Source of the DNA: Kryptolebias marmoratus
Lineage: Eukaryota; Chordata; Actinopteri; Cyprinodontiformes; Rivulidae
Reading direction: 5' to 3'
Assembly: GCF_001649575.2 (NCBI RefSeq)
Contig: NC_051436.1
Coordinates: forward strand, 13,180,388 to 13,244,387
DNA length: 64,000 nt
The notes under the pieces were generated by a model that made no database searches, had not been told where the DNA came from, and saw only the letters and a list, made by a program, of their open reading frames with translations. Of this stretch, positions 20,690 through 45,557 are shown piece by piece. Both the position numbers and the translations under genes were made by a program. Within the stretch, counting starts at the first letter, position 1. Every line of letters begins with the position of its first letter.

Positions 20690-20995
20690 TTTATTTGCAA
20701 GGATTAAACTTTAAGCTATTCCTTTGTTGACTAAAATTCATTCAACTTCTCCCAGACGCTGTCGGACCTCTGCACTTTAACATAGAAACCTTCAGATTAG
20801 TTTGTTTCTCCTCGTCTTCTGCTGCTAAAATGCTGCGTTCAATGGGCCTCGGAAATGTGGCTTTTAAAGCAAGCACCTTATTTACACCTATAGGCAAAAT
20901 AAGAAATGAAAAAAAGCCTAATTTTCTGCATGTGGGTATTTTTTTTTACCAGAATCCCATTAAAAGTAGACACATTACTTCTGGTGTAGGCCTAT
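20690..20995 (-). pseudogene. Orphan USP promoter and first exon
   Basis: The reverse complement of this block matches the USP-B promoter and non-coding exon 1 (2925-3217) almost throughout, including TTGAACGCAGCATTTT, GGAGAAGTTGAATGAATT and the exon end AAATAAAG followed by GTAGG. The ISRE core of USP-B is disrupted here by substitutions and an insertion. No USP catalytic exon follows on the minus strand down to 14 kb. It marks where a USP gene once stood beside UBL1, as USP-C stands beside UBL2. Confidence 0.85.
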
Positions 20996-21033
20996 TTGTG
21001 GTCAAGAATATCAGATAACTGTTCAAGTAAAAC

Positions 21034-21039
21034 TTTATT
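21034..21039 (-). terminator. UBL1 poly(A) signal
   Basis: TTTATT on the plus strand (AATAAA on the minus strand), about 80 bases after the UBL1 stop codon. Confidence 0.6.
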
Positions 21040-21119
21040 ATTTGTAAACAAAGTTGTCATGAGCCACAGTAGGAAGCAGCAATAGGAGGAGGAGGAAGAG
21101 GAGGTACAGAGGGTCTGGA

Positions 21120-22049
21120 TCAAGCTGTCAGTCCTCCAGGAACCCGGATGACCATCTGGATGACAGACTTGTTTTGGATCCCATATTCAGACAGCAGTGT
21201 TGTGTCTCCATCCAGCATCTTGTCTGTAAAAATCAGCCGCAGGTTGTCCTGTCCTGGACACACATGGAAACAAACACACACTTATGAGAATCTTCTGTCA
21301 TAGTTATTTCAAACAACCCCACTCACAGAAACATCTCGTGAAAAGCTATCTATTTTATCCACTGGTGTATCAGACTGCTCATCAGTTTCAATAAGGAACA
21401 ACAAGCAACAGAGAGAAAAAGTACTAGTAATATCTGTGCCTTTAAGGGGTTAATGTTCCAGGTTCCTAGGTGTGTGACATGTGGGTGAGGGAGTGAGTGG
21501 AGCCAGGAAAAGGTGAAGGTGAGCATGGTGGGTAGTCAGGGCTGTTCATGGTGAGCTGTGGATGAGACAGAGGCTCTTGTTTTGAGCCAACTTTTGTGCT
21601 GTTGCACAATGAAAGTGGTGAGATTGCACGGTCGCCCCAGGCTCATCTTTCTGCATACAAGAGCATTACAGTACAATAAAAAAAGCATAAAACAGTTGAC
21701 TATTTGAGTTTTAAGCTACTTTCCTATAGGTCTATAAAACACATCAGATTATGATAAAATAAAAATAGTGTGCGAGAAACAAAAAAAAAAAAAGAAAACA
21801 AAAATCTAATACCCTATTTAACTGCGTTGACAAACATGTAAATTATTACTAACACTGACACCATATAGAGTTAGCTCTGGTTCTTCAACTTTGTGTCTTT
21901 TACCTGTTGTCTCTGGGAGTTTCTCTGCTATTTTCTCCTTCAGCTGACGCACGGTCATTTTCTGCATCTGCTCCTCGGTGTTGCAGAGGTCTATGAACAT
22001 CTTCTCCCCTCTCAGGCCATGAACCATGACCTGGTAGATTTTTTCCCAT
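21120..22049 (-). pseudogene. UBL1: ubiquitin-like protein with a frameshift in codon 3-4
   Basis: Exon 1 22049-21904, exon 2 21253-21120. It is nearly identical to UBL2, but the run of five A after ATGGG is six A here. The ATG at 22049 therefore leads to a stop after 12 codons (280 coding bases against 279 in UBL2). An in-frame ATG at 22027 (MVHGLRGEKMFIDLC) could initiate, but would lack the first residues of beta-strand 1. The rest is intact: TEEQMQKMTVRQLKEKI helix, then LRLIFTDKMLDGDTTLLSEY and the C-terminus RVPGGLTA. Splice sites are good (GTAAAAG donor, TGTGTCCAG acceptor). Either a young pseudogene, a shortened protein, or a homopolymer sequencing error. Confidence 0.8.
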
Positions 22050-22133
22050 TTTCCTGCTGCTCGATCGGTTCTTTCTGCTGCTGCGTTTGAGACAAACCTC
22101 CTTCAAATGACTGACAGCTGCCATGAAAAAAAC

Positions 22134-22143
22134 TTTCACTTTC
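22134..22143 (-). promoter_or_regulatory. ISRE of UBL1
   Basis: TTTCACTTTC on the plus strand, GAAAGTGAAA in gene orientation, an exact match to the GAAAnnGAAA core. It lies 85 bases upstream of the ATG. The same element is at the matching place in UBL2. Confidence 0.8.
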
Positions 22144-22239
22144 TGTTTAAAAAGCCAATCTGCTATTAAAGTCCTCACATTCCTCCAAGGAATCCATATC
22201 GCCCGCCACCTTTCTTGCCAAAGTTTGAGACAACGATCA

Positions 22240-22927
22240 TCGTATGTGGAGAAATGACAAAGTTGCAGCCATTTTGGTCAAATCTTGAAAACAACTTTAT
22301 TTGTAATCTCATACAATACTGTGACCAAAAGTTAATCAGTTATACATGTTTATCCAATAAATACTTTCTGTAAGTTTCAATTGAAAAAATTCACTGGTTC
22401 ATAAGATATTTTGAAAAAAATAAATGAACACAGAGAGAGAGACATGGTCCTTTGGTGGCAGACGATGTGTACTTTAAATCAACTTAATTTAGTTTAATAA
22501 TGTGCTGTTATTAACTCATTTGATTATATATTAATACTTTATAAGCGCAGCAGCAAAATAATAGAGTTTCTGCAGAAGGGTTTCATTTCTTGTGCCTGTG
22601 CATTTTTTTGCATTTATCAAACCAGCCTGTGTGTAAATAAGTTACCTCATATGAAGATAATCTTGTTTTCCCAGCTGTGATCTTGTGACCTACTGTAGGT
22701 GTAGTTGTTTACCAGCTATGCTTGCTTCCTTGAGAGTCACCACGAAACATTTTAGTCTAGATCTCTTTGCCTCTCTCTCTTTTGAGCGTGTCAGGAGGGT
22801 TAATGTAGTAGCTTTCAACTTTGTGTGCCTACTTTGTTACAATATTGCTTTTAAGAGTATGTGAAAATAATAATTGTTAAACAATAATTTTACAACCTTT
22901 ATGATGTTATTTTAAATGTAAAGTAAT
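22240..22927. repeat. Inverted duplicate of 1919-2470, between UBL1 and RBR1
   Basis: Matches the DNA upstream of USP-B in reverse complement. It fills most of the 1.06-kb interval between the divergent UBL1 and RBR1 starts. Confidence 0.7.
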
Positions 22928-23032
22928 GGAATGCAGCGTTCATTTTGTTCTAAAGTTACACAACATGACAAAACAAAGAAAATGGAGTCGACCCACCATG
23001 TGACTGGTTTCATGTGACTTCTGGTAAAAAGT

Positions 23033-23042
23033 GAAAGTAAAA
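23033..23042 (+). promoter_or_regulatory. ISRE-like element of RBR1
   Basis: AAAAAGTGAAAGTAAAAG around 23026-23043. The core GAAAGTAAAA differs from the consensus by one base. It lies 68 bases before the ATG of RBR1. The RBR2 counterpart (43053-43062) is an exact match. Confidence 0.6.
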
Positions 23043-23109
23043 GCAAGTCACTGCGCTTTGACAGTGATAGGTTTCTCAACAAAGAGCAGAAGAATTGATC
23101 TGATCCACA

Positions 23110-25436
23110 ATGAACGATCAGGACCAGAACGAGAAGAGATACGACCCCAGAGACACAACACTGAGATTTGTCAACAGACCTGATGATCTGGATCCACTGC
23201 GTAAGGACTAAAAACTGGGCAGCAGTTGTTGTTCTAATGTTCTTATTTCATGTTTCTTACTTTCAATTTGTGCATAATAGCTCTATCTCAGTAAGTGCAT
23301 AGAGTAAAACAAAGCAGATGTGGGTGTTTTTCTCACAATGTGTGTACAGTATTTGCAGCAATGCTGAGTTTAATGTCTGTTCTCTGCCTCTCAGCCCCCG
23401 ATGAAGGAGATCAGGGTCTCCGATCAGAGATGTCCTGTGGTCACGCCGTCACTCCTCAGTCTCTCACCGGATGGTGTCGCAGCCTGCTGGATCAGGTACT
23501 TTCCACCTGTTCAGTCAGTCAACATGTTGTTATGACTTCAAAGTAAAGATTTATTGTTTCTTTTCTCTTTAAGAACCTCCAACTTATAGAAATTTTCATC
23601 AACTCTTTGTGTTGGTCCAATCTGATGTTGATGATTTCCTTGTTGTGTTTAGAGGCATACAAAATTCCTGCACAAGAACAAAGATTACACCCAACCCCTT
23701 CATATTTTAAGAAACACAAGCTTTCTTTTTGCTCCTTTCAATGATTCAGAAACAGCTAATTAATTGTTCAGAGCCTGTTTGGTTACTTGTTCAACTACTC
23801 TCCTTTTGGCATGTATCACACTTTTTACAGCTAAATAAATGTCCTTCACTTCATGTTTGAAAAAAACTTTGCTTTTTTATAGTGCAAACAGCTTCAAGTG
23901 ATTTCTACTGAGACATCTGTATTTGCCTTGCATTTGATCAGGTCTATTTCTGGATGTTTCAGAAATATTTCTGGATGTCCTTTAAAAACATTGTATTTGA
24001 GAGCATTTGAGACATTATCTTGTTATAAAGGTTGTCCCCTTTTCACCTTCATCTACTTTTAAAAACTGCAGGGTTTGCTTCCAGAATGTACTAATATTTA
24101 GTTGAAACTATTACTTCCTACCTCTCTGCAAATAGCATAGTGGTGGGGCTTGAGAATCCTCATAATCCTGAGGGCTGGCCTCAGATGAAGGATAAAACTT
24201 AATAAAGAATAACCACAAAAAACTGGAAAACTGGGACATCTTCTTGGAGCCAGGACTGAAATAGAAGCTTACCAACAAACAAGTGGTTGCCAGTTCTTGA
24301 TTCCTGTGGCTCAGCTAGGCCCAGCACAAAAAAGCTAAACCTACCAGGAGTTGCTTACAATGAGAGATTTCACGCAGGTGTGGAGACACTCTCAAGCCCC
24401 CAGAAAATGGACACCAAATAAGCCATGTTGAAATCCTAAATTGCAGACAGAAGGGATCGACAGGCATCTGCTTAGAATGTCTCCTGTCTCTTCTTTGTCC
24501 TGCTGGGAGACCCAAAGGCAGACCCAGATCTTTTCCCTCTAGCCTGCAAATGCATTCTGAGCTGCAGAGCCTCATTAGGCTCAGGCATTTCTGGGTTTCC
24601 TACCTGGATCTGTTAAGGGGAAGAGGATGGATGGATGGATTTTACTGCCTTTATGTTTGAACTGCGTTCAAAGTCACTGGCTGCAACTCAGGCCCAAAGC
24701 ATGATTAAATCAACACTGTACTAAATAGTCATAGTCATCTTTTTTTCAGATTTTTCAAAACATTTTCCCTTAAACAGGCATTTGCTCATTTTTGTTTAAA
24801 AATCAACAATCAATATGACTTGTGATTAAAATGTGGCCAAGAAATATCAATTATTGGAAATTTAAACTCAGTTGTACAACATCCTGACCAGTTCTGCACA
24901 TAATTCTCTGTGTTGAGCTGTTTATATGATGAATATGTCTTCAATTTTAAGGGTCGATATACATTCAAGTGCCCTGCCTTAAAGAAAGGAACCCTGCAAC
25001 AGTGCGGTGCAGTGTGGCCTTATCAAGAAGTGCGCCGTTTAGCAGTCCTGACCGCTGAAGAAATGCAGCAGTTTGAAGAGAAAATTGCTCTTCTGGCTGC
25101 TACAAAGTACTGCGAGTTTAAACCAGTAAGTGTTTTTCAAATTTGTTAAGAGTTCAGAAATCTTTCCAGAAGTTTCAGCACCAAAGGTTTCTGAAATGTT
25201 AAATTTTATGTTGTTGTTGTTTGTTTGTTTTATTCTTTCTCTGACAGTGTCCTGGTTGTAAGACCTTCGTTGAGAGACAAAACCTGACTAACCTCAATGT
25301 GCAGTGCTTAGTGTGCAAAGCAGATAAAAAGAAAGTGTACCAGTTCTGCTGGCAGTGTTTGAAGCCATGGAAAGGTCCAGCTCCACGCTCGGACAAACCT
25401 CCATACCTGTGTGGCACAGAAACTAAATATACATGA
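23110..25436 (+). CDS. RBR1: RBR-type E3 ligase truncated before RING2
   Basis: Exons 23110-23200, 23395-23495, 24952-25125, 25248-25436; 184 residues. It has the same exon phases as RBR2. Present: N-terminal RYDPRDTTLRFVNRPDDLDP, degenerate RING1 (SCGH, GWC, KCPA, CGAVW), and the first IBR cysteines (CPGC, CLVC, FCWQC). After PAPRSD the sequence jumps to the RBR2 3' end: relative to RBR2, bases 45078-45354 (277 bp) are missing with a 3-base GAC microhomology at the junction. The frame also shifts and ends KPPYLCGTETKYT. RING2 and the catalytic cysteine are gone, so it cannot act as an RBR thioester ligase. It could be a non-functional copy or an interfering short form. Confidence 0.85.
24150..24660. 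mobile_element. Interspersed repeat in RBR1 intron 2, LINE-like 3' end
   Basis: Absent from the matching intron of RBR2. It ends in a (GGAT)n tail (24636-24653), common at the 3' end of fish LINE copies. The body has no readable reverse transcriptase frame. Confidence 0.5.
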
Positions 25437-25689
25437 ATGTAACAGTTTTATTTTCCCTGGGATTTAACAAAAAAATGTAAGATGTTGTAGGTCTTTTTAT
25501 CCATTAAGAGCATTAAACAACATTTGCTCTGTTTTGTTCTTATAATTTGCTCTTCACAAACATAATTGAAAATTGTTTCCTAACACCTGATTTATTTTTA
25601 ATAAAAGAAAATAAAGAATAATTTTGTGACCAAGAAATCAAGGTTTTCAGCTGCACACATAAATGTAAAGCTTTTTGTTTTGGGACAGT

Positions 25690-26160
25690 AAGGGGGCTGT
25701 ACTGGTGTAGTGGTCGGTGCTTTCACGTCACAATAGAAAGATATTCAGATCAAATTTTGGCTCAGGTTTTTCTGCCTGCAGTTTGCATGTTCTCCCAATG
25801 CAGAGACTCTGGTTTTTATCCCACAGTTTAAAAAAATAGAGTGTAGGTTGATAGGTGGTTTTTAATTGACTTTAGGAGGAATGCATTATTGTGTGGTGTG
25901 TCTGTAATTCATTCATTAACCTTTATTTAACCATGCAAATCCAGTTGAGATCTCTGATTGCTTTTTCAAGGGAGGCCTGGACCTGAAGGCACCCTAACAT
26001 GCATGTTTTTAGACTGTGGAAGGAAACCAGAGCACCCAGAGAAAACCCACACAAACACAAGGAGAACATGCAAACTCCATGCAGAAAGACCCCAGGTCCA
26101 ACACGGGGTTTGAACCCAGGATCTTCTTGCTGTGAGGCAACAGTGCTAAGCATCTGCCAG
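25690..26160. repeat. Fish interspersed repeat, two abutting fragments
   Basis: Typical text of a dispersed family: GTTTGCATGTTCTCCC and GGAAACCAGAGCACCCAGAG with AACATGCAAACTCCATGCAG. The family is also seen at 19780-19905 and 58560-58880. No coding potential. Confidence 0.7.
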
Positions 26161-26369
26161 TCAATTTACCAGTGACTTATGCAGGGTATAACCCAGCTCT
26201 CATCTGCTGACTGCTAGGACAATCTACAGTTTCTTTTCATCCTTGATCAGGATACTGTTGAATACATCTACTAAAGGTTCTTTGATTTTAGTCACATCAG
26301 TGGTTGAAGCATTCGGCCAGGAGAGGTCATCAGGTGAGATCCAGCTTCCACTGCACATTTTGATCTCCA

Positions 26370-26790
26370 GACTACGGGCCTGCAGTGATGGTTAGTGCCC
26401 ATCTTCTCCTGGCTTCCAGCTCAATTCTGCCTCCTACTTCAGAGCCAACAAGAGGCTCACTCTGCTACCTCCCCCCAGCCTGCTCACCACACTCTTATTC
26501 TCACCTCCTACATCTCCAGTGGCTGTCAGCATTCTCTATATTGACTGCAGGGAAGCCCCTACAGCCTACATTCATAGGAAACAACCAGATCTTCCACCCT
26601 TTGTCCCTGCATTGCTGGACCAGGTCCTGCTATTTTGTGGCTATTCTTTCTGAGGCTTCTTCACATCCATTGTCCCACACGACTATTAGTTCAATCAGGA
26701 TTCTCCTCTTTGCCACCTCAGATCATAAGACAATGTCAGCCCTCAGGGTGACTGGATGATCTGGGGAAAAACAAGCTTCCACCTCAGGAC
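26370..26790 (-). mobile_element. LINE fragment (post-RT C-terminal part)
   Basis: The minus strand gives SEVAKRRILIELIVVWDNGC, EASERIATK, CRDKGWKIWLFPMNVGCRGF, matching the conserved C-terminal region of fish non-LTR elements. Broken by stops. Confidence 0.8.
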
Positions 26791-26799
26791 TACCCTCAT

Positions 26800-27570
26800 C
26801 TCCCATGACGAATAAGTATAGAAAATAATTTAGTGTGTGAAGTCAATATGAATAAGTTCAAATTTAGAAATTAATAAATAGTCCATTTAACTTTGAATGG
26901 AAATAATTTAAAACACCATCATTTATCCACATCTCCAATATGGTGCCTGTAGTCAAATGTACAAATGAGATGATTTGTTATTAGACACTTCAGAAAGAGA
27001 TGGAGCTTTCTGTAACACCAGTTTCAAAATAACACTGAACAATAACAGGACTGAAGACATGTCTACACAATAAAAATGGTTTATAAAAACCATAGCTACA
27101 CAAAGATTTCACTTATTTTATGTATAATCTATAACAACCTGTAGCTGAAACAAAGCTGTAAAACAGGGGTCAACAGACTGTCATTCTAATATCATGGGAC
27201 TTTTTTTAAATGATAGAGAAAAACTAAAAAAAGTCTTTTTAAAAAATCTTTTTAATCTGTAGCTTTTGTGTTCATACTTCATTTGTGTCAGATTCCTAAA
27301 ACAGGCAAGAGTGGAAAATAATTATTATTGTTATTTTGTATTACACACTACAAAAACCCACAAAGAAGACACTAGACTGCAGAAACGGTGGCAAATCACT
27401 TTAGAAACAATAAATATTGGGTTAAAGTTGCGGGAAAGTTGTGGTGTTTTGGACAAAGTTGCAAAAAGTTGCGATTTCACGATGTTTGCTTGATTTTGCG
27501 TTAATAGTTGCGATCACAACATTGCGAAATCCTGGAGGGTCTGATTAGAGTGAAAATACAGCTGAAATGA
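26800..27570. other. Intergenic, nothing recognised
   Basis: AT-rich sequence without a supported gene or complete repeat. Confidence 0.5.
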
Positions 27571-27574
27571 TAAA

Positions 27575-27793: not shown

Positions 27794-27840
27794 AGGGTCC
27801 TTGTTCATGTGACTCACTGAGTCACATGAACAAGGACCCT
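27794..27840. repeat. Perfect 23-bp-arm palindrome
   Basis: Arms of 23 bases around a single central C: AGGGTCCTTGTTCATG... mirrored by ...CATGAACAAGGACCCT. It could extrude as a cruciform. It directly abuts the CCCTAA-like repeat. Confidence 0.95.
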
Positions 27841-28468: not shown

Positions 28469-31400
28469 TTATCGTTTAATCTGTCTTTTCACTTCTGTCA
28501 GTCTGCCCCTTTTATGATTTTTCACTGAAAAGGGGAAACACATTAAACATGTATTGTTTGAAACTCTATCAGCTGTTTCTAGGTCTACATCTGGAAATCT
28601 TTTCAGTATGTGAACATCTGGCTGAGTTTTCTTGTTAGCTTTTTTAGCTTTTCCAGAAGCTTTTTTAGTTAGGTGTTGTTGATCAGATGAAAAGGTCTCA
28701 CTGGGGTTTGTAGTACAAACACTTGCTCGTAAATTGGCCTTTGTTGTCTTTATGTCAGACTTCACTTTAATATTTGCTTTATTATATTTTACATTCTTTT
28801 CACTGCCGACAAATAAGGTTTTCTCTGCATTCTTTATGTTTGTTGGCCTGTTTGACTGTTTTATTGTTTGACTGTTGGACTGTTTTATTGGCCTGCGGAA
28901 TAAACTTCTGAATCCTTTTTTTATTTTCTTAACATTAAATCTTGGCTGCTCTGAGCTGTGTTCTCTGTCTGCAGCTCCCTGTAATCCTCGGCTTTCCTTC
29001 TCAATTTTTCCTCTCCTGTCAGCTGTCTGGTTTTCAGTCAGCCTTGCTCTTGTTTCTGATGATGATACACTATGAGAAGCATATGAATCTTCATCATCAA
29101 TTTTCTGACTTCTAGTTTGTCTCTTCAAACCATTGTTTTGTGTTTTAGATGTACCACAAACTTTTTGTTTACTGTCTATCCTCTCTTGATCTGCTTCACC
29201 TTCATGATGGGGAGGTTTTGTATTAAATTTTTTTCTTCTTTCCAAATGTTGATTATTTAATCTGCTCTGATCAGCATCATGAATCTGGACTCTATCATCA
29301 GTGATGTCTTCCTTTTTTTTCCTCTTACTGTTTTCTTTCCAGTTACTTTTTCTTTTTATGACCCCCAAATCATGTTTTGCTTTGTTTTGTTCACTTTCAC
29401 CCCTTGTTACACTGACCTGTTCAGGTGTATAAGTACGATTAACATCTGATCTCATCTTTTTAACCTCAGTTAGCTTTCCATTGCCCAAATTCTTTTTTTT
29501 TTTTTTAACCTGGACATTATTAAAAAGCAGATCCCCATCTATTTGGTCATCTGCACTGTTCTTCTCTGTAGTCACAGTTTTGGTTTTGTTAGAGCTGACT
29601 GTTTTTGTGTTATCAGCCTCCTGTGCAGAGTTCTCACTGGTAGCAGGGTGATCTTCATTTGTGTACTTGTCCTTTGAGTCTTCAGGACCAGAATCTGCAA
29701 CATCAATTAGACAGAAGATCAAAATAAATATAGACATTGTTCCAAGTAGTTTGATCCTGTCATTAACACCACACATCAGTTAATTCTCACTGAAATATCT
29801 GCTGATTCTTACCTTTCTTTCTGTAAAACAGAAGATAGGCACTACTGGATCTACAGGCAGAATAAACCAAAAATATATTAAATATCAATCATTTCTACAT
29901 GTAGGCTGTATATTTGAGTAAAGTTTATGTAACAAAACAAGCAAAAGTCAAAACAGACAAAAAAAAATTATTGTTTTAATGTCAGCTCATTTTGATTTTA
30001 TTGCTTGCAGCAAATTAAAAAAGATAACAACTGAAACTTTTTTACCCCTTTGTTGTGTAAATTATTCTTTTACCAACACAACATTTATTTGAGAACAGAA
30101 GAAACCAGTAAATGTACAAACAATTGTTTTGAAATATAAATGCTTTAAATTGTTAAAATCTCATAGAGTTTTAGCTGTTGTACAGTTTAAACTTCCTTTA
30201 TGTTATTGTTTGTTTCATTATCAACCAAATGTCTTTGTGATATGTCTGGATTGCAGTCGGGTCGGTTCACCACAGAGCAAGGCTGTTGTAATGAGAGTGG
30301 AAACTAGTTTGGCGTCTTTCTAAATTAAGCAAAGCCTTTCCTGTAAATGATGCAGTTCAGACAAAAGGGTTTGGCTCCAACATGAACTCAAAGTGTAATT
30401 CTACAGTGACAATGTTCTTTTTAAAAGTGCTCCTTAGTTCATGAAATGATTTCCAAAACAAAGTTGTGTCAATAGAAATCCTCACTGCAGCTCACAAAGA
30501 TTACAAACATTCAGACTTTGATTCTTTCTTGTTTGCAGGAATTATTCCTAACTGCTATGATTCTTATGATATAATTTATCACAGATGACAAAAATTTTAG
30601 GGCTAAAGTGTGAATTTACTTTAGGTTAGGGTTAGTCATGTACTGGTAATAGTTAGGGTATGAGTAAGGGTTAGCCTACAAAAATGAATGGAAGTCAATA
30701 CAATGCCCTAATAAAGAAAAAAAATACTTATTTGTCTGTGTTCTGGTTTGCCTTCTGTATGTTTTTTGATGTCATGTTTTGATTATTTCTTAGTTCATTT
30801 AAATCTGTTATGTTGTTTTACATTTGGCCTACTCTTAAATTGTTTTTGATCTGAATTCTTGTTACTTCCTGTTTTACTGTGTTGAACTCTTTCCTATGTA
30901 CATTTTGGTTGACTTTGCTTTCTTAGTTCACATCTGACCTCTGCTCTGTTGATTAGCACCGTCAGTAATAAGACTCATTGTTTCTTCATTCTGTTGCTAG
31001 ATAATTGTTGTTGTTTGATTATTTTCTGGATTCCCTTTCTTCTGGCATCTTTGGTTAACAGTGGGTTACAAAAGTATTCAATCAAATACTTTGTGAAGCC
31101 ATGTCTCCATAGGCTTGGTACATCTAACCACTGGGATTTTCATCCATTTTTTCATGACCAGTCTGCTATATTTCTGTCAGGCTGGATTGGTGCTGCTTGT
31201 GTTCAACAATCTTTAACTCAAACTAGAGATCCACAATTAGATTGAGGTATGGGCTTTGAGTGGACCATTTCAGGACAGTTAACTGGTTCTCCTTAAACCA
31301 ATGGACTGTTGCTTCAGCAGTGTGTTTCGTGCCATTATCCTGCTGGGAGGTGAACCTCTGCCCTAAACTCAAATCTCTGGGAGACTCCAAGAAGTTCCTC

Positions 31401-34400
31401 TCAAGAATTTCTCTGTATTTTGCTCCATCTACTTTTTATTTATATCTGACCCATTTCCCAGTTTTTGTTGATGAAAAGCATTCCCACAACATGATGCTGC
31501 CACCACCATGCTTCACTGTAGGGATGGTGGTTCCAAGAATGATGAGAGGTGGCAGGTTTGTGTCAGACATTGTGTTGTCCTTGACCACAGCACTTTCCTT
31601 CACATGTTAGGAAGAAAGTGCTGTGGTCAGATGAAACTAAAACGTATTGATGTTGCCCTCAGCCTCCAAATTTTGCAGAAAGCTCCGTGGAGCTGCTGAT
31701 GTCTTGTTTGTTACTCAGGTGACAGCTGACAGTCTAATGGAGGCTATGTTGTAATGTCAGGTGTGAACTATCAGATTTAACTACTTGTGAACACATTATC
31801 CAGGCAGAATCATTTTACCAAAAGTCAACCACCTCTAAAACTTACATTGCAATGTTCTTCTTGTCTGGGAATGGACTTTCATCAAGCTGAAAAAAACAAA
31901 TCAATTTTTTATTAAATCTATGCCTTCTTTTGGAAAAGGCTATATACCTTTACAGCACGCTGGAGCAACTTTTAACAACACTGAAAAAAAAAAAAAACTG
32001 CTACATCTCACCGGTGTGACTCTGTCATCATCAAAGCTGAACCATCTGTCTTCATCATCCTGGGGCTTAATGACTGCTGTGTAATGTCCACCTGTCAGAT
32101 CACCAATATGATCCACGGCTGCATAAAGTTCATATGTCTGATTCTGTTCAAACAAATATATAGATGTTAAAATGAGAATTAAAAAAATAAATAGATCATA
32201 TCTAAAACAAAATAAAATACAGTGAAGATTAACCTGTGGTATCTTCAGGGTGTAGGGAACATCAACAATACAGCTGATTTTGACATATGACATGTTCTGA
32301 TAGCTGAAGTCAAACCTCTTCAGGAGGAGAATCAGAACATCTGGATGATGCTTCATGACATATTTCTGCAAAGAAAAACAAAACAAACACCCCCAAATAA
32401 AATGTAAGAATGTTGTTCTGCTTCCATTATTTTTGTCTCTATCCAAAAACATCTGAGACATATTTTATTATTTACAGTACTCACACTAGTAGCATTAACT
32501 TTGGTATCACATTTGTCACAGTACATCTGCTTTTCTCCGCTGAAATCTGAGGTTTTGAAAAACTCCTCAATGCCATTTTCCTGAAAAATGCACCTGTGTT
32601 TAGTTTTGAGGAAAAACAATCAAGCACCAAACAGTGTAATAAAGTTTTTAAAATGTCTTTTAAGTAGAAAGGTTTTCAATAAGGAAAATAAACTTTAACA
32701 ACTCGGACCATCAAAGCACAATTTCTAGGAATAATTAGAGATTATAAAAAGTTTTTAATAGTCTTACAAAATCAACAACAGCATAAAGGAAAACCTTGAA
32801 TCTGAAGGTTTGTTTGTAAGTACATACACTATTTGCCAGAAGTATTCATTCATCCATCCAAATCCTAATTGAATTCAGGTGTTCCAGTCACTCTCATGGC
32901 CACATGAGTATAAAATCAAACACCTAGACATGCAGACTGCTTCTACAACCATTTGTGAAAGACTGGGTCGCTCTCAGGAGCTCAGTGAATTCCAGCATGG
33001 TGCAGTAATACGATGCCACCTGTGCAATAAGTCTAGTCATGAAATTTCCTCACCACAAAATATTCCACAGTCAGCTGTTAGTGGTGTTATAACAAAGTGG
33101 AAGTGGCCATAAAATCACAGAGCAGGCTCAGCAGACGCTGAGGCTCATAGAGCACAGAGGTCACCAACGCTCTGCAGAGTCAACAGCTGCAGACCTCTAA
33201 ACTTCATGTGGCCTTCAGATCAGCTAAAGAACAGGATGTAGAGAGTTTCATGGAATGGGTTTCCATGGCCGAGTAGCTCCAAGCCTTCCATCACCAAGTG
33301 CAAAGAGTCGGATGCAGAGATTTGAAACACGCCGCCACTGGACTCTAGAGCAGTGGAGACATGTCCTCTGGAGGGACGAACCACGCTTCTCTGTCTGGCA
33401 ATCCGATGGATGAGTCTGGGTCTGGGTCTCGGTACTTGTCTGACTGCATTGTGCCAAGTGTAAAGTTTGGTGGAGGGAGGATTATGGTGTGGGGTTGTTT
33501 TTCAGGAGTTTGGCTCGGCTGCTTAGTTCCAGTGGAAGGAACTCTTAATGCTTCAGTGTACCAAGACATTCTGGACAATTTCATGTTCCCAACTTTGTTT
33601 AACTTAGCTCCCACCTTTCCAATCATATTAAACTCTATGGATTTAGAATGGGATGTCACTCAAGTTCATATGTGTGTTTGAAGGAAGACGAGCGAATACT
33701 TTAGGCAATATAGTGTATGTCTAAAATAATTTCTGTCAAGGCTTCATTTAATGTCAGATTTCAGGTATTGTACTTTTCCCTTGAGCCTCTGAGGAAGTTC
33801 AGAAGTACTTCAGTGTAATAAATAGTTTACCAGTTTAACAAGATGGAGTCATAGTATTTATATGGTAGAATGGGCTTTCTCTTTGTGACAATTAAATGGA
33901 AGAAAATATAATATTTCTTTTAATTTTTAAAAGCTTTGTTTTCTGATATAAGAGTCTAGTTTTCAAACAGTCCTGTGCTAAACTGTCATAAAATCAGTCC
34001 GTGGTGCTTTATGTGACTAAACAAAGTGTCTCACTGAGCTGCGACTGTTGGAGACCCTAAATTACAGAAAACTGGATTTTTCCATTTCAGTCTCACTGAA
34101 TTCTGAGTGTTTGCAATTAGCTAGCTGTGAGGCTGCGGTTTGAGTGGCCACTTTTAGAAAATCAGGGACTATTTTTGTGGGTACATTAGTTCATTGTCCA
34201 ACTCTATGACATCACCCACACATTGGCAGCTGCCCCCATGTTTTTAAATATAATAACGGAGTACATTTTTTAAATGAAGATAGGCAGATTTGAAACAGTT
34301 TATTAATTATCACTTATCATGTTTTTATACACAAACATGTTTTCTATCAGTGGAAAGCTTGTGAAAATACAGCTCTAGCACTCTTGAGATGAGTTGGAGA

Positions 34401-36546
34401 TACCAGCAACAAAACTGAGATGGGTTTTAGACCGGTTTGAGACACTGGCAACAACTCTGTGACTGTTTAGAGAGAAAATTTGTCACACAAATTTTTTTAA
34501 CATGAATGTTCATGTTAAGCGACAAGATGGTGAGCCTCTGTGACTCACGCAGACTAACTAAGAACCACTGCAAATGTTTCCAGACATAATTCAAGACTAC
34601 CTTGTAAATGCTGTGCTTCACCTAGTTACCACTAGTTACTAACAGCTGCAAGAGTGATACTTTTTTTTTTCAATTCTTGATTGCAAATATATTAAATAAC
34701 AACCTAGCATTTCTTGAAGGAATGCATATTGTCCACTGCCTTCCATGTCAGAGTTTTATACTAAGATTATCTTATATTGAGAAATGACAGTGTTGTGGAT
34801 GTTTTGGGTACAAAACAATGCAAAATGTTGCAGATGACTCTCAGCTAAAGCTACACCAAATTTTATAAGATTATTATTAGTTACAGCATTTTTCTGTCGG
34901 AAATGTCGGGGTTTTTTTTTTTTTGGTGTTTTAGTTTATTGTTTTTATTTGTCTTCATGTTTTCTGTTCAGGTATTTTTGTCATGATTTGGCTTTTGTTC
35001 TTTATGTCCTTGTGTGCTGTCACTATTCACTCCTCCCCAGTCACTCTTTGGTCTTTCTGCCACGCCCATCTACACCTGCCCCAAGCCTTGATTATCTTCG
35101 ATCTTTGCCCACTTTCCAATCACCTCCTCTGTTTTAAAAACCCGGTCATCACTTCCACACCCCGCTGGTTCATTGTCCTTTGTTATCTGCCTTGTTGCCA
35201 TGCCTCGTCGCCATATGCTCTGTTTGGGTTTCGTCTCGTCTCGCCTCAGGTCTGTTTATGAGCATTTCAGTTTGTTAGTGTTTTTTGTATCTAGTTTGTT
35301 TGCTGCCACATGAGCTTTTTGTTTCTGTTTATCTTTTATTTTAAAATAAATTAGTTCTATCCCCGCTACAAAATGAGTCTGCACTCTGGGTTCACCTCCT
35401 TCCCCCATCCCCCCTCCTGACAGGAAAATTAAGTAAACTCCAAAAGCTATTCCGTTGCAGTCATGCATTAATGATTACTTTCTGAGTTTCATTAAAATTT
35501 GTCCACTGGTTCATGAGATATTTTGCTAAGGGACAAACAAACACACTCAGACATAGGCAAAAACATTATTGCCCACCCCAGAATGACAGGTGATAATAAG
35601 ATGTGAAAATATGTCTACTGAATTATTAATACTGTCAATTTTGATAAACCAGAAAGGTTGTAGATCAGATTTTTCACAGTCTGAACTAATCTTCAAACAT
35701 CCTGTCAATAAAAACACTGAGAAGTTCACAGAGTGTCAGATTCTCACCACGCTGTAGTTTTCCCTGCAGGAATTCACCAGTTCAAGAGGAAGATGCCAGA
35801 ACGGTACATCTGTGTTAGTCTGTGTCCCACAACAAGGACAGAAGATCCTGTGGCTCATCTGTCCATGGAAGATCTGACAACACAAAGAAACATAAACCTG
35901 TGAAGAAAAGTATTTTTTCCTAATCAAAGTACTGTTTTTGTTTTGAAGAAGTCTTTACCTCTGCTGCACTGGGACTGGTCATCCGTAAAATCCTCTCAAG
36001 GTATTCTGCAGCATCACGTTGTTCATACACTGAGACAAAAAAAAGAAAAGTCTTCCTGAATATTCATTTATAAAACTAATGTTTAAAAAAGAAACAAAAT
36101 TTGTGTTTTTAGCTCATATTTATTGATCAGAATGATTATTGGAGTTAATAAATCAGAGCTAAATAGACATAACAATCAATGCAGATTTACAAACTGATAT
36201 AATTTCATAAAAATCATTGGAAAAGAATGTGAATGTTGTCATACTGTACCTCTGTCAATGTGCAGTTTCTTCAGTATTTTACATGTGTCTGTTGGTTTTT
36301 GCAGTAATTGATCAAACAATTCTTTAAGATGAGGATCAATTAAATCAGAGTTAGGATTCTCATCCACAAACCTAAACAAGTAGAAGTCAGGTGTGTTACA
36401 CAGGTACTCGTTAAAATGAATTTTCAACATAAATGCAACAACAAACCTGTCCACAGCTTCTCTGAACTCTCTGGTCATGAACAACACCTGCAGCACACTG
36501 TTCAGGTAGCAGGTCGCTCCCTCTCTGATCAAGCCGTGGTACTTAC
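28469..36546 (-). CDS. USP-C: ubiquitin-specific protease (C19) with basic tail
   Basis: Exons, 5' to 3': 36546-36447, 36371-36250, 36029-35959, 35873-35748, 32580-32485, 32365-32234, 32143-32012, 31886-31846, 29850-29813, 29694-28469. Phases are identical to USP-B. Catalytic features: [13 protein letters not shown] and YCDKC zinc pairs, [30 protein letters not shown]; all triad residues present, no stops. The tail is about 408 residues, Lys/Arg/Ser-rich ([30 protein letters not shown]) and unrelated to the acidic USP-B tail. The coding start exon (MPANNKPS in USP-B) was not found between 36.6 and 39.1 kb, so the N-terminus is unresolved; with an equivalent exon the protein would be about 702 residues. 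Intron 31886/29850 holds transposon debris, and intron 35748/32580 holds a Tc1 element and a solo LTR. Confidence 0.87.
30088..30537. repeat. Right arm of inverted duplication, within USP-C intron 10
   Basis: Reverse complement of 1-445. Distal to it (30560-31050) is AT-rich intron without recognised features except a GGGTTAGGG-rich patch near 30630-30680. Confidence 0.9.
31060..31720. mobile_element. Tc1-like transposon remnant in USP-C intron 10
   Basis: Contains the phrase CAACATGATGCTGCCACCACCATGCTTCACTGTAGGGATGGT (31485-31530), a hallmark of antisense fish Tc1-like transposase ([11 protein letters not shown] region). Upstream and downstream text is degenerate. No intact frame or terminal repeats. 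Confidence 0.65.
32825..33717 (+). mobile_element. Tc1/mariner element with internal deletion, in USP-C intron 6
   Basis: Terminal repeats TACACTATTTGCCAGAAGTATTC and, at the right, GAATACTTTAGGCAATATAGTGTA. Target TA. Between them are recognisable transposase pieces: helix-turn-helix ([19 protein letters not shown]), [18 protein letters not shown] text and the [14 protein letters not shown] block. The catalytic C-terminal third is deleted. Dead copy of a family very common in fish. Confidence 0.92.
34725..35575. repeat. Dispersed repeat interrupted by a solo LTR
   Basis: Bases 34725-34903 and 35423-35575 are two halves of one copy of a dispersed family. Its 3' half carries GTCCACTGGTTCATGAGATATTTTG; similar copies are near 2290-2470, 22240-22440, 37850-38200 and 39585-39720. 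The LTR at 34904-35422 split it. Confidence 0.65.
34904..35422 (+). mobile_element. Solo LTR, family 2 (519 bp)
   Basis: Starts TGTCGGGG, ends CCTCCTGACA. Flanked by the 5-bp direct repeat GGAAA (34899-34903 and 35423-35427). Internal CTGCCACGCCCATCT and a late polyadenylation-like AAAATAAATTAG. The same family as 53986-54441 and the fragment at 51806-52105. Confidence 0.88.
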
Positions 36547-39330: not shown

Positions 39331-40515
39331 AGTGTCCAAACCTAATAGTTTTAACACTGATAGCCTTAGTTAAAGCTAAGAATACAGATGGTTAATAAGT
39401 ACAAATTAAAAGATCTGCAGTGGGGCTTGAGTGCAGTATTTACAGGAACTGGATTAAATTGATAAAAAATTCTAATTACATCACATTAACTGTAAGTAGA
39501 GAATCACATTAAAAATAAGCACACAACTTTTGGTTAATTGTAATATTAGTTATCAGCCACTGCACTGAAAGACAGGCAATAATGTGATTGCTTTATGTCT
39601 GTATTTGTTTGTCTGTTAGCGAAATATCTCATGAACCACTGGATGGATTTTAATGAAACTCTCAGAAAGTAATCATTTTTTTAAATATTCTCTTGAAGAG
39701 GTCAGTGATGGGATTCGGTGATGCACTGCTGCTGACATCAAGTACACAACTTTGACTTGTAGTTAATGACCTAAGGAACGATTATAAACAATTAATGTCT
39801 CACCTGCTGTAGATAGCAAACTTTTCACCAGACTGACGAGCTACTGACTAAGTGGATTACTGTCTTCTTACACAACCTTAGTTGTAAAAACTTTTGTAGC
39901 AAACATTATTTTATAACCTTCGCATTGTGTCATCAGTTTCATATTTCACGTTATTCTTGGCAGAGATTTTACAAAGTGCATCAGATTGCACCAGAAGTGC
40001 TACAGCTAGCTGCTTCTACTCTTTGCACTTGTAAATAACGGCATAATTCTATGTAAATAACTGTGTAAAATGAAATTGGCTGTGATGTAAAGGTTTCTTA
40101 AGAAGCAATTGTTTGAACCTCTATGAAATCTTTTAGATCGAACCTGTTTTGAAACAAGAGGAATTTAATTTTGACCTGGCCATGCTGGGACTAGCTGTTA
40201 GCTCAAATAACCCATCAGAATTTAACTGTTTTTAATTTAAACTGGCTTTTTTTTTTCAAAGAGCTATCTCAACAGGTAAGACGTTAATTGCTCATATATA
40301 ACCTTTCTGCAGACGCCCATCTCAATAGATTAGTGGTTTATATAAGGTTTATAGAAACACAAAGTTTGAGGAAATCAGTTTAATTTTGTGCAACAACAGA
40401 ATATTTGATTTCAAACATAAGAAACATTACAATCAAACAAATAAAATAATAAATCTTTTGCATTTGTAAACAGTCACTGGAGGAGGTGGCGGGCGCAGCA
40501 GGAGGTGCAGGTGGT
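39331..40515. other. Intergenic; dispersed repeat piece at 39585-39720
   Basis: Contains GAAATATCTCATGAACCACTGGATGGATT of the dispersed family in inverted orientation. Otherwise AT-rich without genes. Confidence 0.5.
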
Positions 40516-40520
40516 CTCAG

Positions 40521-41314
40521 TCAGGCCGTCAGTCCTCCAGGGACCCGAATCACCATCTGGATGACAGACTGTTGTTGGATTCCATATTCAGACAGCAGTG
40601 TTGTGTCTCCTTCCAGCATCTTATCTGCAAAGATCAGCCTCAAGTTCTCCTCCCCTGGACACACACAGGAAAACAAACACACACACACACACACAGACAT
40701 AAAGTAGATATTAGTTGAAGACTTAGTCATAATACAATGCATGCAAACCACCTAAAGAAACAAACATTGAGCAAATACCATCACTACATTCTATCCGCTG
40801 GTGCATCCGAAGGCTACAGAGCAGTTTTATCTTAATTTGTGTGTTATTTAGTATTTTGTAGATAGCATTGAGTGACTTCGTCTGTAGCTTTGTCATGTAA
40901 AGCTGTGTTAAATATTCAAAATGAAGCTGAATCTCCACAAAAACAAACTACATCGGAGCTCGAACAGTTAACTTTATGACAGCCTGAGCAACGACTGGCA
41001 TAAGGTTGTTGTGCAAAATATACTTTCACTTTTAACTCCTAAGTGTATTTGGCTCTTAAAACATCAGTTTTTACTTAACTTGTGTGACTTGTATGAACAT
41101 TATTACTTTTTAAACAAATATTTCTCCTAATAAGCACGCAAAAGTTTAATTGAAAACTCAGGGACTCACCCGCCGTCTCTGGGAGTTTCTCTGTTATTTT
41201 CTCCTTCAGCTGACGCACGGTCATTTTCTGCATCTGCTCCTCGGTGTTGCAGAGGTCTATGAACATCTTCTGCCCCCTCAGACCGTGAACCACGACCTGG
41301 TAGATTTTTCCCAT
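40521..41314 (-). CDS. UBL2: ubiquitin-like modifier ending in Gly-Gly
   Basis: Exon 1 41314-41170, exon 2 40654-40521; 92 residues, one ubiquitin-like fold. Start MGKIYQVVVHGLRGQ (beta hairpin), TEEQMQKMTVRQLKEKI (helix), LRLIFADKMLEGDTTLLSEY (equivalent to ubiquitin RLIFAGKQLEDG.TLSDY), SVIQMVIRV, then PGG at 87-89 followed by only LTA. A Gly-Gly followed by a few residues is the usual form of a conjugatable modifier precursor, which must be trimmed by a protease. Splice sites: GTGAGT donor, TGTGTCCAG acceptor, phase 1. An exact ISRE lies 112 bases upstream. Divergent neighbour RBR2 starts 1.87 kb away. It is related to the ISG15/ubiquitin group but has a single domain and VPGG rather than LRGG. 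Confidence 0.9.
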
Positions 41315-41425
41315 GTTCCTGCTGCTCTCTGTGCTCCTTCTGCCTCTGTGCTGAACGACTGAAGTTCCTGCAGTTAGTTTGTATTTGACAAAACAAGTTC
41401 TGACGTCAGAGAGAACAAAAGATTC

Positions 41426-41435
41426 TTTCACTTTC
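41426..41435 (-). promoter_or_regulatory. ISRE of UBL2
   Basis: TTTCACTTTC on the plus strand, GAAAGTGAAA in gene sense. 112 bases before the ATG. Confidence 0.8.
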
Positions 41436-41689
41436 TATTTCATAAAAAATAAAAAAAGAAGAAAACAACGCCTTTATTGTGTGAATGCTGACACTATTGT
41501 TCTCCAGTTTTTTTAGCTTTCTATACATAATTTGCAATCTAATGAGATTACTTCTACATACTTTGTGCTATTTTAGCCATTCCTACATCAAAACATTCAG
41601 CTCATTCAGGAAATAGTAGCTGTGACTTTTGGTTTTTGTAATTTTCATACTTTTCAAAATATTTAACTTTAATTATGAATATTTTCTTA

Positions 41690-42920
41690 ACAGGAACACA
41701 TTGAGCTCTCCTCAGAGCCTTTAAAAACATTGTTTCTTGGAAATCTGCTTCAGCAAACTTGCTCTATTTTTGTATTCTTATGCTACTTTTACCATTTAGG
41801 TTTAACATCATTTGAAAAGTAATGTAATGGAAAATTTTAATGTTGTTCTTTTTAATAGTAAAATGTATAACAATAATTGTGATTTTTGCCTGCACAAGTG
41901 AAGACTTAATGAAGTTATTCTTCTTCTAACTGTTAAGGTTTGAAATGATTTTGTTCTTTGTTCTATGTGGGAACTGAGAAAAACTCTGGTCCTGCCTTAC
42001 TCATTTCTGCACCTGGACTTGACTGATTTGTTCTCAGTGATTCCTCTCCCCCTGTTATTATCAGATATTCTTTGTGAGAAACGAAGCTGCTCAGTAACTA
42101 TGTAAAAGTGTGGCTGAAAATGATGTAATGAAGTTCAGTGAGTTTGGGTCTCCGAACGCTCTTTTGCCTTCGGAATAAAATTCTTTTTCAAAGACAAAGA
42201 TCCATCTTTCTCCTGATTCTCTGAAACAGACATCTTACTACTTGTTGATTATTTTTTGCTGCTACAGTATAATAGTCACAACTACTACTGTTCTGGTACT
42301 TTTACCTTCTAGTTAGCCTTATTGCTACTTTTAGCTCTTAGTGAATCTTTTGCTACTTCAGCTTTTAATGACCCTTTTATTACATTTAGCTAGCCTTTTG
42401 TTACATTTAGCTTTTAGCTATCCTTTCCCCTACTTTTAGCTGGTGCTCTGCTTCTTTTAGCTTTAACAACAAGGTTCAGCTTCTTCAGCAAAGTCATTCA
42501 GCACTCAGCATTCACGCCATGTTTTCACAGTAAATTTAATTTCTCTAGTTTCAATTATTTAATATCAGTGTTGTTGATAAACTTAGTACTTTCTTACTTT
42601 GAGAAATTAACATTTTATTTGTTGTTAGTAGATGTTTGTGTATCACAAGAACAAAAGCAACCCCATGTTCACTTTGAGACCGTTGTTTTTATTATTTATT
42701 GAATGTATTTCCTTGTATGAGTTCTGGGAATCACCTTATTTCCCAGCAGCAGTTGGGTTATCAAGGTGTGTTTGTTATTCTTGTTTCTTTAGTGCAGCTT
42801 TGAAATAATTTCTTTCTCAGGCAGTTATAACATTTATAAATAAGTCTTTTATAAATGTTTTAAAGATGTTTGGTATGTTAATGAATTTAAAGCAATGCAG
42901 TAAAAGATCACAAAAGTTTC
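41690..42920. repeat. Direct segmental duplication (partner 37000-37680)
   Basis: Collinear with 37000-37680 but expanded by about 550 bases in the middle (roughly 41790-42470). That insert includes a run of TTTTAGCT-type repeats around 42300-42460. Confidence 0.7.
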
Positions 42921-43052
42921 CTAAAATAAAGTCAAAGTTGCCCAGAGCATTACTTTTGTTCATGTAATCATTTATTCAAAAGAACTGACAATCAGACAGT
43001 TTGGTTTAATGTGACTTCTTGTAAGTTTAAGAATATAATTGTGGAAGTAAGT

Positions 43053-43062
43053 GAAAGTGAAA
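43053..43062 (+). promoter_or_regulatory. ISRE of RBR2
   Basis: GAAAGTGAAA, exact core, inside AAGTGAAAGTGAAAGCAAA. 121 bases upstream of the RBR2 ATG. Confidence 0.8.
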
Positions 43063-43182
43063 GCAAACTCTCTGAACCCAGAGAGTGACGCAGCTGCAGC
43101 AGCAACTTCAGGGGGAATTTACTGAGAGCAGACAAAAGAGGTTTGGTACTGACAAGAAGCAGAAGAGCTGATCTGATCCACG

Positions 43183-45386
43183 ATGAGCACTCAGGACCAG
43201 AACGAGAAGAGATACGACCCCAGAGACACAACACTGAGATTTGTCAACAGACCTGATGATCTGGATCCACTGCGTAAGGACTAAAAACTGGGCAGCAGTT
43301 GTTGTTCTAATGTTCTTATTTCATGTTTGTTACTTTCAATTTGTGCATAATAGCTCTATCTCAGTAAGTGCATAGAGTAAAACAAAGCAGATGTGGGTGT
43401 TTTTCTCACAATGTGTGTACAGTATTTGCAGCAATGCTGAGTTTAATGTCTGTTCTCTGCCTCTCAGCCCCCGATGAAGGAGACCAGGGTCTCCGAGCAG
43501 AGATGTCCTGTGGTCACGCCGTCACTCCTCAGTCTCTCACCGGATGGTGTCGCAGCCTGCTGGATCAGGTACTTTCCACCTGTTCAGTCAGTCACCATGT
43601 TTTTATGACTTCAAAGTAAAGATTTATTGTTTCTTTTCTATTTAAGAACCTCCCACTTATAGAAATTTTCATCAGCTCTTTGTGTTGGTCCAATCTGATG
43701 TTGATGATTTCCTCGTTGTGTTTAGAGGCATGCAAAATTTCTGCACAAGGACAAAGATTACACCCAACCCCTTCATATATTAAGAAACACAAGCTTTCTT
43801 TTTGCTCCTTTCAATGATTCAGAAACAGCTAATTAATTGTTCAGAGCCTGTTTGGTTACTGACATGTTCAACAACACCCTCTTTGGCACGTATCACACTT
43901 TATACAGCCAGATAAATGTCTTTCACTTCATGTTTGGAAAAAAGAAAAAACTTAGCCTATTTTCTGTGCAAATAGCTACAAGTGATTAGCATTGGGACAT
44001 TTGATTTTGGTCAGGTTCCTTTCTGGATGTTTAAAGATATTTGAATTAAAAGCCTACTGTGGCCATGCAGTATTTTTGAGGAGTATTTGTTTTTTGTTTT
44101 TGTTTTTCTAAAGTTTCCTTTTGCTTTCTCATTTAAACTATTTTACTATTAAGTTCCTGTTTTCCTCTTTTTAGGAATAACAGGCATCATGTTTGCTCCT
44201 ATTAGTGTTTCAGAGAAATGTAGGAAATCGTTTAAAACAAATGTTTGGTTCATGTTTACTGACTGTGATACCCGCTACCAGTAGTAAAATGTGTCAAACA
44301 TGAGCCCATGATGAAACCAGAGGATAAATACTTGCCCTCCAATGCTGCCATGGGTCACTGGAAGCAAAAATTTTTCCACACAGCTGATTTGAAACAAACA
44401 AGCAGGTCTTCAAGCTCCTATATTTAGAGTGTTTTTAAAAAGTATCATCCTCTACTCCTTCTCTAGTGAGCAAAAAAGCAATTTATGAAATGTGGTCTTT
44501 CTTCTAAATGATTGCCTCTGACTAATGTATACTTGATCTGATCATACCCCGCTGTCAGTGCTGTGATGGCACAAACAGATGTACCGCTACACCCCTGCTG
44601 GAGAACATCCCAACCAGTTTCACTGAATGTTCAACTGCTTAAATGACGAATATGTTCTAAATTTTCAGGGCCAGTACACATTTAAGTGCCCTGCCTTCAT
44701 TAAAGAAACCCACCAACAGTGCGGTGCAGTGTGGCCTTATCAAGAAGTACGCCGTTTAGCAGTCCTGACCGCTGAAGAAATGCAGCACTTTGAAGAGAAC
44801 ATCGCTCGTCTGGCTGCTGCAAAGTACTGCGAGTCTCAGTCAGTAAGTGTCTTTCAGATCTGTTTTAAATCAATATTAGAAACTGCAATCAACTTTCTGC
44901 AATGTTGAACACTACATTTTTCTCTGACAGTGTCCTGGCTGTAAGTCCTGTATTGAAAGAGAAGACCTGACTAACCTCAGTGTGCAGTGCTTAGTGTGCA
45001 CCGCAGATAAAAAGAAAGTGTACGAGTTCTGCTGGCAGTGTTTGAAGTCGTGGAAAGGTCCAGCTCCACGCTCTGACCGCTGTGACAATGATGGCTGCAT
45101 CAACCATGACCTTGAAGTGCTCAGGACCTGCAAGACCACCACTTTTCCTGAAGTGAATGGGGTCGATGCCTGTCCCTCCATCCGGGCCTGTCCCACCTGC
45201 GGTCAGAAGGTGGAGCACGACAAGACGGGCTGCAAGAACATCATCTGTCCTCGCTGCCAGGTGGAGTTCTGCTTTGTGTGTCTGAAGCTGACTCCGGAGT
45301 GTCTGGACACGAGTTCCTACTTCATCCCCTGCAGCGATGGTGTGGCTCCCAGACAAACCTCCATACCTGTGTGGCACAGATGCTAA
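43183..45386 (+). CDS. RBR2: RING1-IBR-RING2 E3 ubiquitin(-like) ligase
   Basis: Exons 43183-43273, 43468-43568, 44669-44842, 44931-45386; 273 residues, all junctions GT-AG and in phase. Order: N-terminal RYDPRDTTLRFVNRPDDLDP; degenerate RING1 around Cys45-Cys82 (SCGH, GWC, KCPA, QQCGAVW); IBR from Cys123 (CPGC, CLVC, FCWQC, then CDNDGC); RING2 Cys209-Cys239 (CPTC, KTGC, CPRC, FCFVC). Cys223 in KTGC sits at the catalytic position of RBR ligases, which form a thioester before transfer. The protein is short, with no obvious substrate-binding domain besides the N-terminus. The poly(A) signal AATAAA is at 45552-45557. The divergent UBL2 neighbour and the ISRE suggest it may conjugate that modifier; this is inference. 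Confidence 0.9.
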
Positions 45387-45551
45387 ATATACATAAACAA
45401 TTGATCTTCTATCCTTTGATAGTAATATTCTCAAAATCTGAATATTTGATATCTGTTCTTGTTCAGGTTTAAAACCAATTTTAAACAATCTCTACAACTG
45501 AAGTTACTGAAGTTTATTTCTTGAGACCTGATTTTTTTCTGATATAATGTG

Positions 45552-45557
45552 AATAAA
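45552..45557 (+). terminator. RBR2 poly(A) signal
   Basis: AATAAA 166 bases after the RBR2 stop. Confidence 0.7.

Follow-up and report, generated by a model that had tools for sequence, protein, structure and literature searches.

Clustered genes for a ubiquitin-like protein, a compact RBR ligase and a USP protease in the mangrove rivulus: a candidate interferon-responsive module

ISG15, an interferon-linked modifier, comprises two ubiquitin-like (UBL) domains and terminates in LRLRGG (PMC13030082). In salmon, ARIT has been described as an RBR-only (RING-between-RING) ligase family, annotated as RNF144A or ARI5 and devoid of a transmembrane domain; induction by interferon gamma reached log2 fold values of 13.45 and 11.59 for ARIT and 4.93 for a USP18-like protease (USP, ubiquitin-specific protease), ubiquitin-like genes clustering with UBB, UBC, UBA52 and RPS27A were not induced, and ISG15 was raised by the authors as a possible ARIT client (PMC12234341). 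Here we describe a 64,000-nucleotide stretch of Kryptolebias marmoratus (mangrove rivulus) DNA, referred to as the window, in which UBL, RBR and USP genes lie near one another. As the single most likely reading, held tentatively, these represent an interferon-responsive cluster in which a one-domain processed UBL, a compact RBR as E3 ligase and a USP protease work as a preferential module.

Probably related genes also surface in trout, where Table 2 of one study reports RNF144A-A (LOC110500498) at 5.2-fold and a USP47-like gene (LOC110500501) at 3.1-fold, together with many other E3 and antigen-processing genes (PMC8467531), and where LOC110500498 was raised by infectious pancreatic necrosis virus in at least three leukocyte populations (PMC11258392). 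Judged from names, architecture and neighbouring gene ids rather than from sequence, the rivulus RBR is probably ARIT and the USP probably the 'USP18-like' protease of PMC12234341. The preliminary description of the locus had not known a compact RBR ligase paired head-to-head with a VPGG-ending UBL to be described, a view that is probably too generous for the compact RBR family, probably described in 2025 as ARIT, and that may hold for the UBL and for the three-gene linkage, of which no account was found among the matches listed from the searched open-licence literature. A search of the same literature for the VPGG motif returned, by title, no fish UBL. The main text of a lumpfish poly(I:C) study contains none of 194655, USP47, ARI5 and RNF144 (PMC10300353), and si:ch211-212k18.7 has served as a CD68 marker in work where ubiquitin and interferon are unmentioned (PMC11855996).

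The intact UBL2/RBR2 pair and its USP neighbours

Two UBL genes on the minus strand and two RBR genes on the plus strand are arranged head-to-head, as UBL1/RBR1 (ATGs at 22049 and 23110, starts 1.06 kb apart) and UBL2/RBR2 (ATGs at 41314 and 43183), of which the latter is intact, with an ATG-to-ATG distance of 1.87 kb and the genes pointing apart. In the gene model of UBL2, exon 1 (41170..41314, minus strand) starts with the ATG at 41314 and exon 2 (40521..40654, minus strand) ends in MVIRVPGG-LTA-stop. The product has 92 residues in one domain, is 100% identical to the K. marmoratus protein P0001 and is predicted to adopt the beta-grasp ubiquitin fold. Being a single domain of 92 amino acids with an IRVPGG-LTA end, UBL2 was ruled out as ISG15 itself. 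RBR2 is modelled with four exons on the plus strand, at 43183..43273, 43468..43568 (start of RING1 with the CGH motif), 44669..44842 (end of RING1) and 44931..45386 (IBR, RING2 with Cys228, and stop), and yields a 273-residue product identical to the K. marmoratus protein P0121, with the RING1-IBR-RING2 arrangement present.

Across the UBL family, the end reads [K/R]-V-P-G-G followed by a variable tail, mostly of three residues, whose length is held as its sequence drifts. The di-glycine is kept in at least 117 of the 119 listed UBL relatives and is immediately preceded by proline in 112 of them. UBL2 is 84% identical over 100% of its length to a Nematolebias whitei protein named zgc:194655, and other relatives bear the same name; the zebrafish zgc:194655 protein itself was not among the matches listed. 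By sequence, the UBL thus named belongs to the zgc:194655 family. Several UBL2 relatives are annotated as NEDD8-like, and a zebrafish 'nedd8-like' gene, si:ch211-183d5.2, stands among the Shigella-response genes in PMC6980646, a possible lead only.

For the RBR family, the catalytic cysteine of RING2 (Cys228) is invariant (50/50) and the RING2 pattern is found in 119 of 120 listed relatives. RING1 lacks its first CxxC: of the 119 listed proteins that have CGH (P0121-P0240), none carries a CxxC in the 45 residues preceding this motif. Relatives of the RBR are named si:ch211-212k18.15, and those of the USP si:ch211-212k18.13 or 'USP47-like'. By naming habit, si:ch211-212k18.13 (USP) and.15 (RBR) presumably derive from one zebrafish clone. 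One further RBR, P0191, is labelled Lampetra planeri, sits on a 31.6-kb contig and is 71% identical to the rivulus RBR, reflecting either contamination or a very conserved family. When viral contigs were scanned with the alignments of the UBL and the RBR, 37 and 46 stretches, respectively, matched by pattern, with 0 confirmed relatives.

Within 20690-45557, the interval treated in the preliminary description, we recovered one USP gene, USP-B, rather than the several that had been proposed: USP-A lies outside, and tblastn with 120 listed USP relatives (E 1e-3) detected no second USP in the interval. USP-B (31845..36544, minus strand) has eight recognised catalytic-domain exons, at 36447-36544, 36250-36371, 35959-36029, 35748-35873, 32485-32580, 32234-32365, 32012-32143 and 31845-31886, with a last catalytic exon near 29793..29852 on the same strand, and matches Pfam UCH at 9.1e-38. 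USP-A (5595..8067, plus strand) likewise has eight exons, followed by a final catalytic exon near 8876-8915. Both USP-A and USP-B have GATCYLNS and GGHYTA as intact catalytic motifs. Among the 120 listed USP relatives (the best 120 of 198), the Cys-box pattern occurs in 102 and the G[H/I]Y pattern in 117, with a stricter Cys-box pattern matched by 76. The solved chain nearest by sequence is USP47, with USP18 further down the list.

A short way past the final catalytic exon of USP-A, one open frame of 1261 codons (8980-12762, plus strand) is acidic and built of direct repeats, with copies of 75-300 nt often spaced 750-890 nt. It is probably a giant repetitive tail of USP-A, and 28472-29779 on the minus strand may be a shorter counterpart for USP-B. 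Furthermore, 59869-60717 and 63087-63140 (minus strand) match the C-terminal portions of a further USP47-like family (P0340, P0328), the catalytic exons of which may lie past the end of the window.

Linkage in other fish and interferon motifs

Linkage was assessed among the matches listed, using only homologue rows that give species and contig and only species present in both lists; equal contig size was taken as the same chromosome or scaffold, which does not by itself show adjacency. Both members of a pair share one contig in 26 of 28 species for UBL and RBR, 26 of 30 for RBR and USP (rivulus among the 26) and 23 of 27 for UBL and USP; the complete trio does so in 10 of 11. Setting aside Pholidichthys, with its 492-Mb contig, leaves 25/27, 25/29, 22/26 and 9/10, respectively. 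The unshared cases are Gambusia and Hippoglossus for UBL-RBR; Larimichthys, Neolamprologus, Oncorhynchus kisutch and Poecilia formosa for RBR-USP; and Gambusia, Ilyodon, Lates japonicus and Stegastes for UBL-USP, some of these contigs being short or possibly from different assemblies. Conserved linkage had been selected beforehand as a test on which the original proposal could fail, and it was largely recovered, for UBL with RBR as well as for the three genes together.

Locus tags are nearly consecutive in several species. Oryzias javanicus (USP 181110, UBL 181140, RBR 181160) and Dissostichus (USP 011920, RBR 011927, UBL 011928 and 011931) have tags for all three genes. For UBL and RBR, the tags are 027072 and 027071 plus 027069 in Collichthys, 019115 and 019114 in Aulostomus, 005266 and 005263 in Nibea, and 03302 and 03299 in Pungitius sinensis. 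For USP and RBR, Umbra has USP 238590 and 238650 with RBR 238630, and Coryphaenoides has both genes on a 96-kb contig (RBR 015105, USP 015107). Two predicted proteins even combine neighbours, with UBL exon 1 joined to USP in a cichlid (P0244) and USP joined to RBR in a grouper (P0344). Real UBL-USP or USP-RBR fusions were rejected, as P0244 contains only half of the UBL domain and P0344 is without the first RBR exons; because of this incompleteness, we interpreted both as merged models of neighbouring genes that count only as signs of adjacency.

The starts of all four paired genes are preceded by sense-oriented interferon-stimulated response element (ISRE) motifs. The exact core GAAAGTGAAA precedes the ATG by 121 bp in UBL2 (41426..41435, minus strand), by 130 bp in RBR2 (43053..43062, plus strand) and by 94 bp in UBL1 (22134..22143, minus strand). 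At UBL2, a second core, GAAATAGAAA, overlaps it at 41432-41441, and an ISRE-like GAAAGTAAAA with one mismatch is placed 77 bp upstream of the RBR1 ATG (23033..23042, plus strand). In the window, GAAAGTGAAA occurs in 4 copies versus 0.59 expected, and GAAANNGAAA in 16 copies versus 7.6 expected, numbers reached in 0 of 100 shuffles for either motif. The fourth GAAAGTGAAA is found at 52471-52480 (plus strand), with no recognised UBL, RBR or USP exon downstream on that strand. An exact sense GAAANNGAAA falls in a random 200-bp stretch of the window with p = 0.022. Of the four starts, three have one (binomial 4e-5), and the value is 1e-4 for three of five when a further copy, UBL3, is counted, which has no exact GAAANNGAAA within 300 bp of its start; these start p-values are too small, as the genes are related, not independent and picked after the finding.

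Comparing the 300 bp upstream of UBL1 and UBL2, the best local match is the ISRE, with a score of 28 that is within the shuffle range (mean 18.9, maximum 30). For the RBR1 and RBR2 upstream regions, the alignment (score 40; shuffle maximum 29) is confined to roughly 30 bp directly preceding the ATG and does not include the ISRE. The gamma-activated sequence (GAS) element TTCNNNGAA is not enriched in the window, with 27 copies versus 30.6 expected. The closest exact GAAANNGAAA to USP-B (34079-34088, minus strand) is intronic, 2.4 kb downstream of the first recognised exon, and homology search did not locate the first exon of USP-B. Of the ISRE cores put forward earlier, those at UBL1, UBL2 and RBR2 were exact and that at RBR1 had one mismatch, as proposed, whereas the assignment to a USP start could not be confirmed. 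The accompanying proposal of interferon inducibility is supported by the ISREs at UBL and RBR and by published induction of probable RBR and USP relatives (PMC12234341, PMC8467531, PMC11258392).

The decayed pair and further copies

The head-to-head layout of both pairs was described correctly from the outset, yet damage to UBL1/RBR1 was overlooked, and two working pairs can no longer be claimed. UBL1 consists of exon 1 (21904..22049, minus strand) and exon 2 (21120..21253, minus strand; end VIRVPGG-LTA-stop), and reads ATGGGAAAAAATC where UBL2 reads ATGGGAAAAATC, with six A instead of five. This one extra A puts the start codon at 22049 into a reading frame other than that of the ubiquitin fold. 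In the frame of the fold, a Met first occurs at codon 8, which is also where the public rivulus model P0007 starts, identical to UBL1 from Met8 onward; starting there would remove most of the first strand of UBL1. Another predicted rivulus protein, P0008, is close to UBL1 and has its start in frame.

Analogously, RBR1 (plus-strand exons 23110..23200, 23395..23495, 24952..25125 and 25248..25436) is collinear with RBR2 until PAPRSD and then skips to the last codons, with approximately 275 bp gone from exon 4. This removes the late IBR together with the whole of RING2, so that RBR1 is without the catalytic cysteine. The nonsynonymous and synonymous divergence (dN/dS) is 0.05/0.33 for UBL1 versus UBL2 and 0.07/0.14 for RBR1 versus RBR2 (170 shared codons), values that fit a UBL under long-standing constraint and an RBR copy that is less strongly constrained. 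As assembled, UBL1/RBR1 is by these features a decayed duplicate, with sequencing or assembly error being possible, and the frame shift and RING2 loss rule out that both pairs, in this form, are functional.

UBL3, outside 20690-45557, is an open two-exon gene (exon 1 at 49629..49764, exon 2 at 47835..48028, both minus strand) in which LHGG is followed by a 25-residue tail that begins GETRRSIENL. Long tails after the di-glycine are found in P0095 and P0114 too, and P0106 ends in a similar tail, so that there may be a second type of UBL, extended at the C-terminus by a long stretch. Diverged UBL exons are located at 53471-53590, 56381-56518, 56870-56971 and 57193-57312 (minus strand); the stretches read show no obvious GG. 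Another RBR copy is represented by a single RING2 exon (14087-14329, minus strand) that is 57% identical to RBR2, and tblastn returned no further RBR exon on its strand. Of other elements, a long transposase-like frame at 61391-62935 (minus strand) is one that we take to be piggyBac, and 31226-31607 and 33223-33681 are presumably Tc1/mariner remnants. An Rfam scan of the window gave no RNA family at gathering scores.

Possible readings and relation to known systems

What is shown for the module reading are the gene models, the conservation of residues, the folds as predicted, the linkage across other fish and the ISRE cores at UBL and RBR, with induction taken from papers on what are probably relatives of the RBR and the USP only. 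We favor it because three unrelated families with one biochemical theme are linked in most teleosts compared, ISREs are present at two of the three genes, and two of the three kinds are induced in print. A preferential UBL pathway is plausible, within which we infer conjugation, a cognate E1 and E2, and a preference of RBR2 and USP for the UBL over ubiquitin or ISG15. In such a pathway, interferon would act, via ISGF3 or IRF factors, on the ISREs of the divergent UBL-RBR promoters; the short tail would be trimmed by a protease, for which the linked USP is a plausible candidate, to expose Val-Pro-Gly-Gly; the modifier would be charged by a shared E1 and E2 encoded outside the cluster; RBR2 would accept it on Cys228 and hand it over to target proteins; and the USP would take it off again. 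In rivulus, the first pair would be the decayed duplicate and the second the working pair. Several observations weigh against this: no E1 or E2 was noticed in the window, where no search aimed at them was made; the RBR is listed for lineages in which the UBL was not among the matches listed; one of the two pairs is decayed; and no ISRE could be assigned to the start of the USP, whose first exon was not located.

The same listing of RBR without UBL, as well as the proposal of ISG15 as an ARIT client and the closer match of the USP to USP47 than to USP18, would suit an explanation that we regard as possible and as close behind the module, in which RBR and USP serve ubiquitin or ISG15, and the UBL is co-induced but separate, acting, for example, as a regulator in free, non-covalent form or as a modifier that other ligases serve. 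The locus would then be an interferon-regulated neighbourhood and no pathway. However, linkage of all three genes in 10 of 11 species exceeds what loose co-regulation needs, and a di-glycine and tail length that are held despite drift of the tail sequence fit a processed, conjugated modifier. Birth-and-death of tandem immune genes, with local duplicates, several of them dead, and adjacency from shared regional ancestry without a functional tie, would account for the damage to UBL1 and RBR1, the lone RING2 exon, the UBL exons near 53-57 kb that look incomplete, and the RBR1/RBR2 dN/dS. It is an unlikely explanation of the whole, as three unrelated families of one biochemical theme share a contig in most species listing them, and key residues are kept in the intact copies. 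Finally, replacement of Arg74 by proline, as seen in the residue before GG in 112 of 119 relatives, and the altered RING1 of all 119 CGH proteins could be taken to mean that UBL2 is an unconjugated pseudo-modifier that blocks or tunes the ubiquitin machinery; this we consider very improbable, since a pure inhibitor would not need the GG, the Arg72-like K/R or a tail of fixed length.

Returning to the preferential module, a wider claim, which we advance with more reserve than the module itself, is that teleosts possess a second interferon-driven modifier pathway apart from ISG15, with a VPGG modifier, its own clustered RBR (with half a RING1) and USP; these would have stayed syntenic over much of the history of teleosts and, under pathogen pressure, would tend to duplicate in tandem and to decay. 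Fish may thus carry their own tagging system beside antiviral ISG15. If the UBL is attached by the neighbouring RBR and removed by the neighbouring USP, fish would own a gene-clustered, interferon-induced modifier system, a client would be suggested for the ARIT ligase, which is very strongly induced and functionally unassigned, and a compact modifier-ligase-protease module would be available for studying the origin and diversification of such systems.

Compared with ubiquitin and NEDD8, the UBL shares the beta-grasp fold, the position of the GG and, for the most part, an L8/I44/V70-like patch and K48, but is only about one-third identical to ubiquitin, has proline at position 74 and a three-residue tail, and belongs to a tandem multigene family. 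The length and annotation names of the rivulus RBR fit the RBR-only ARIT family, whereas neither a UBL neighbour nor an atypical RING1 is mentioned in the parts seen of the ARIT paper (PMC12234341). Similarly, the USP resembles the USP18-like/USP47-like clade, as a UCH-domain protease annotated USP47-like and, in salmon, interferon-induced (PMC12234341), yet differs in the very long acidic repeat tail that USP-A seemingly has. With ISG15, UBA7, HERC or TRIM25 and USP18, the cluster has in common an interferon-linked GG modifier with E3-type and USP-type partners, but here the modifier has one domain and ends in [KR]VPGG plus a tail, the E3-type partner is a compact RBR, and the genes are clustered.

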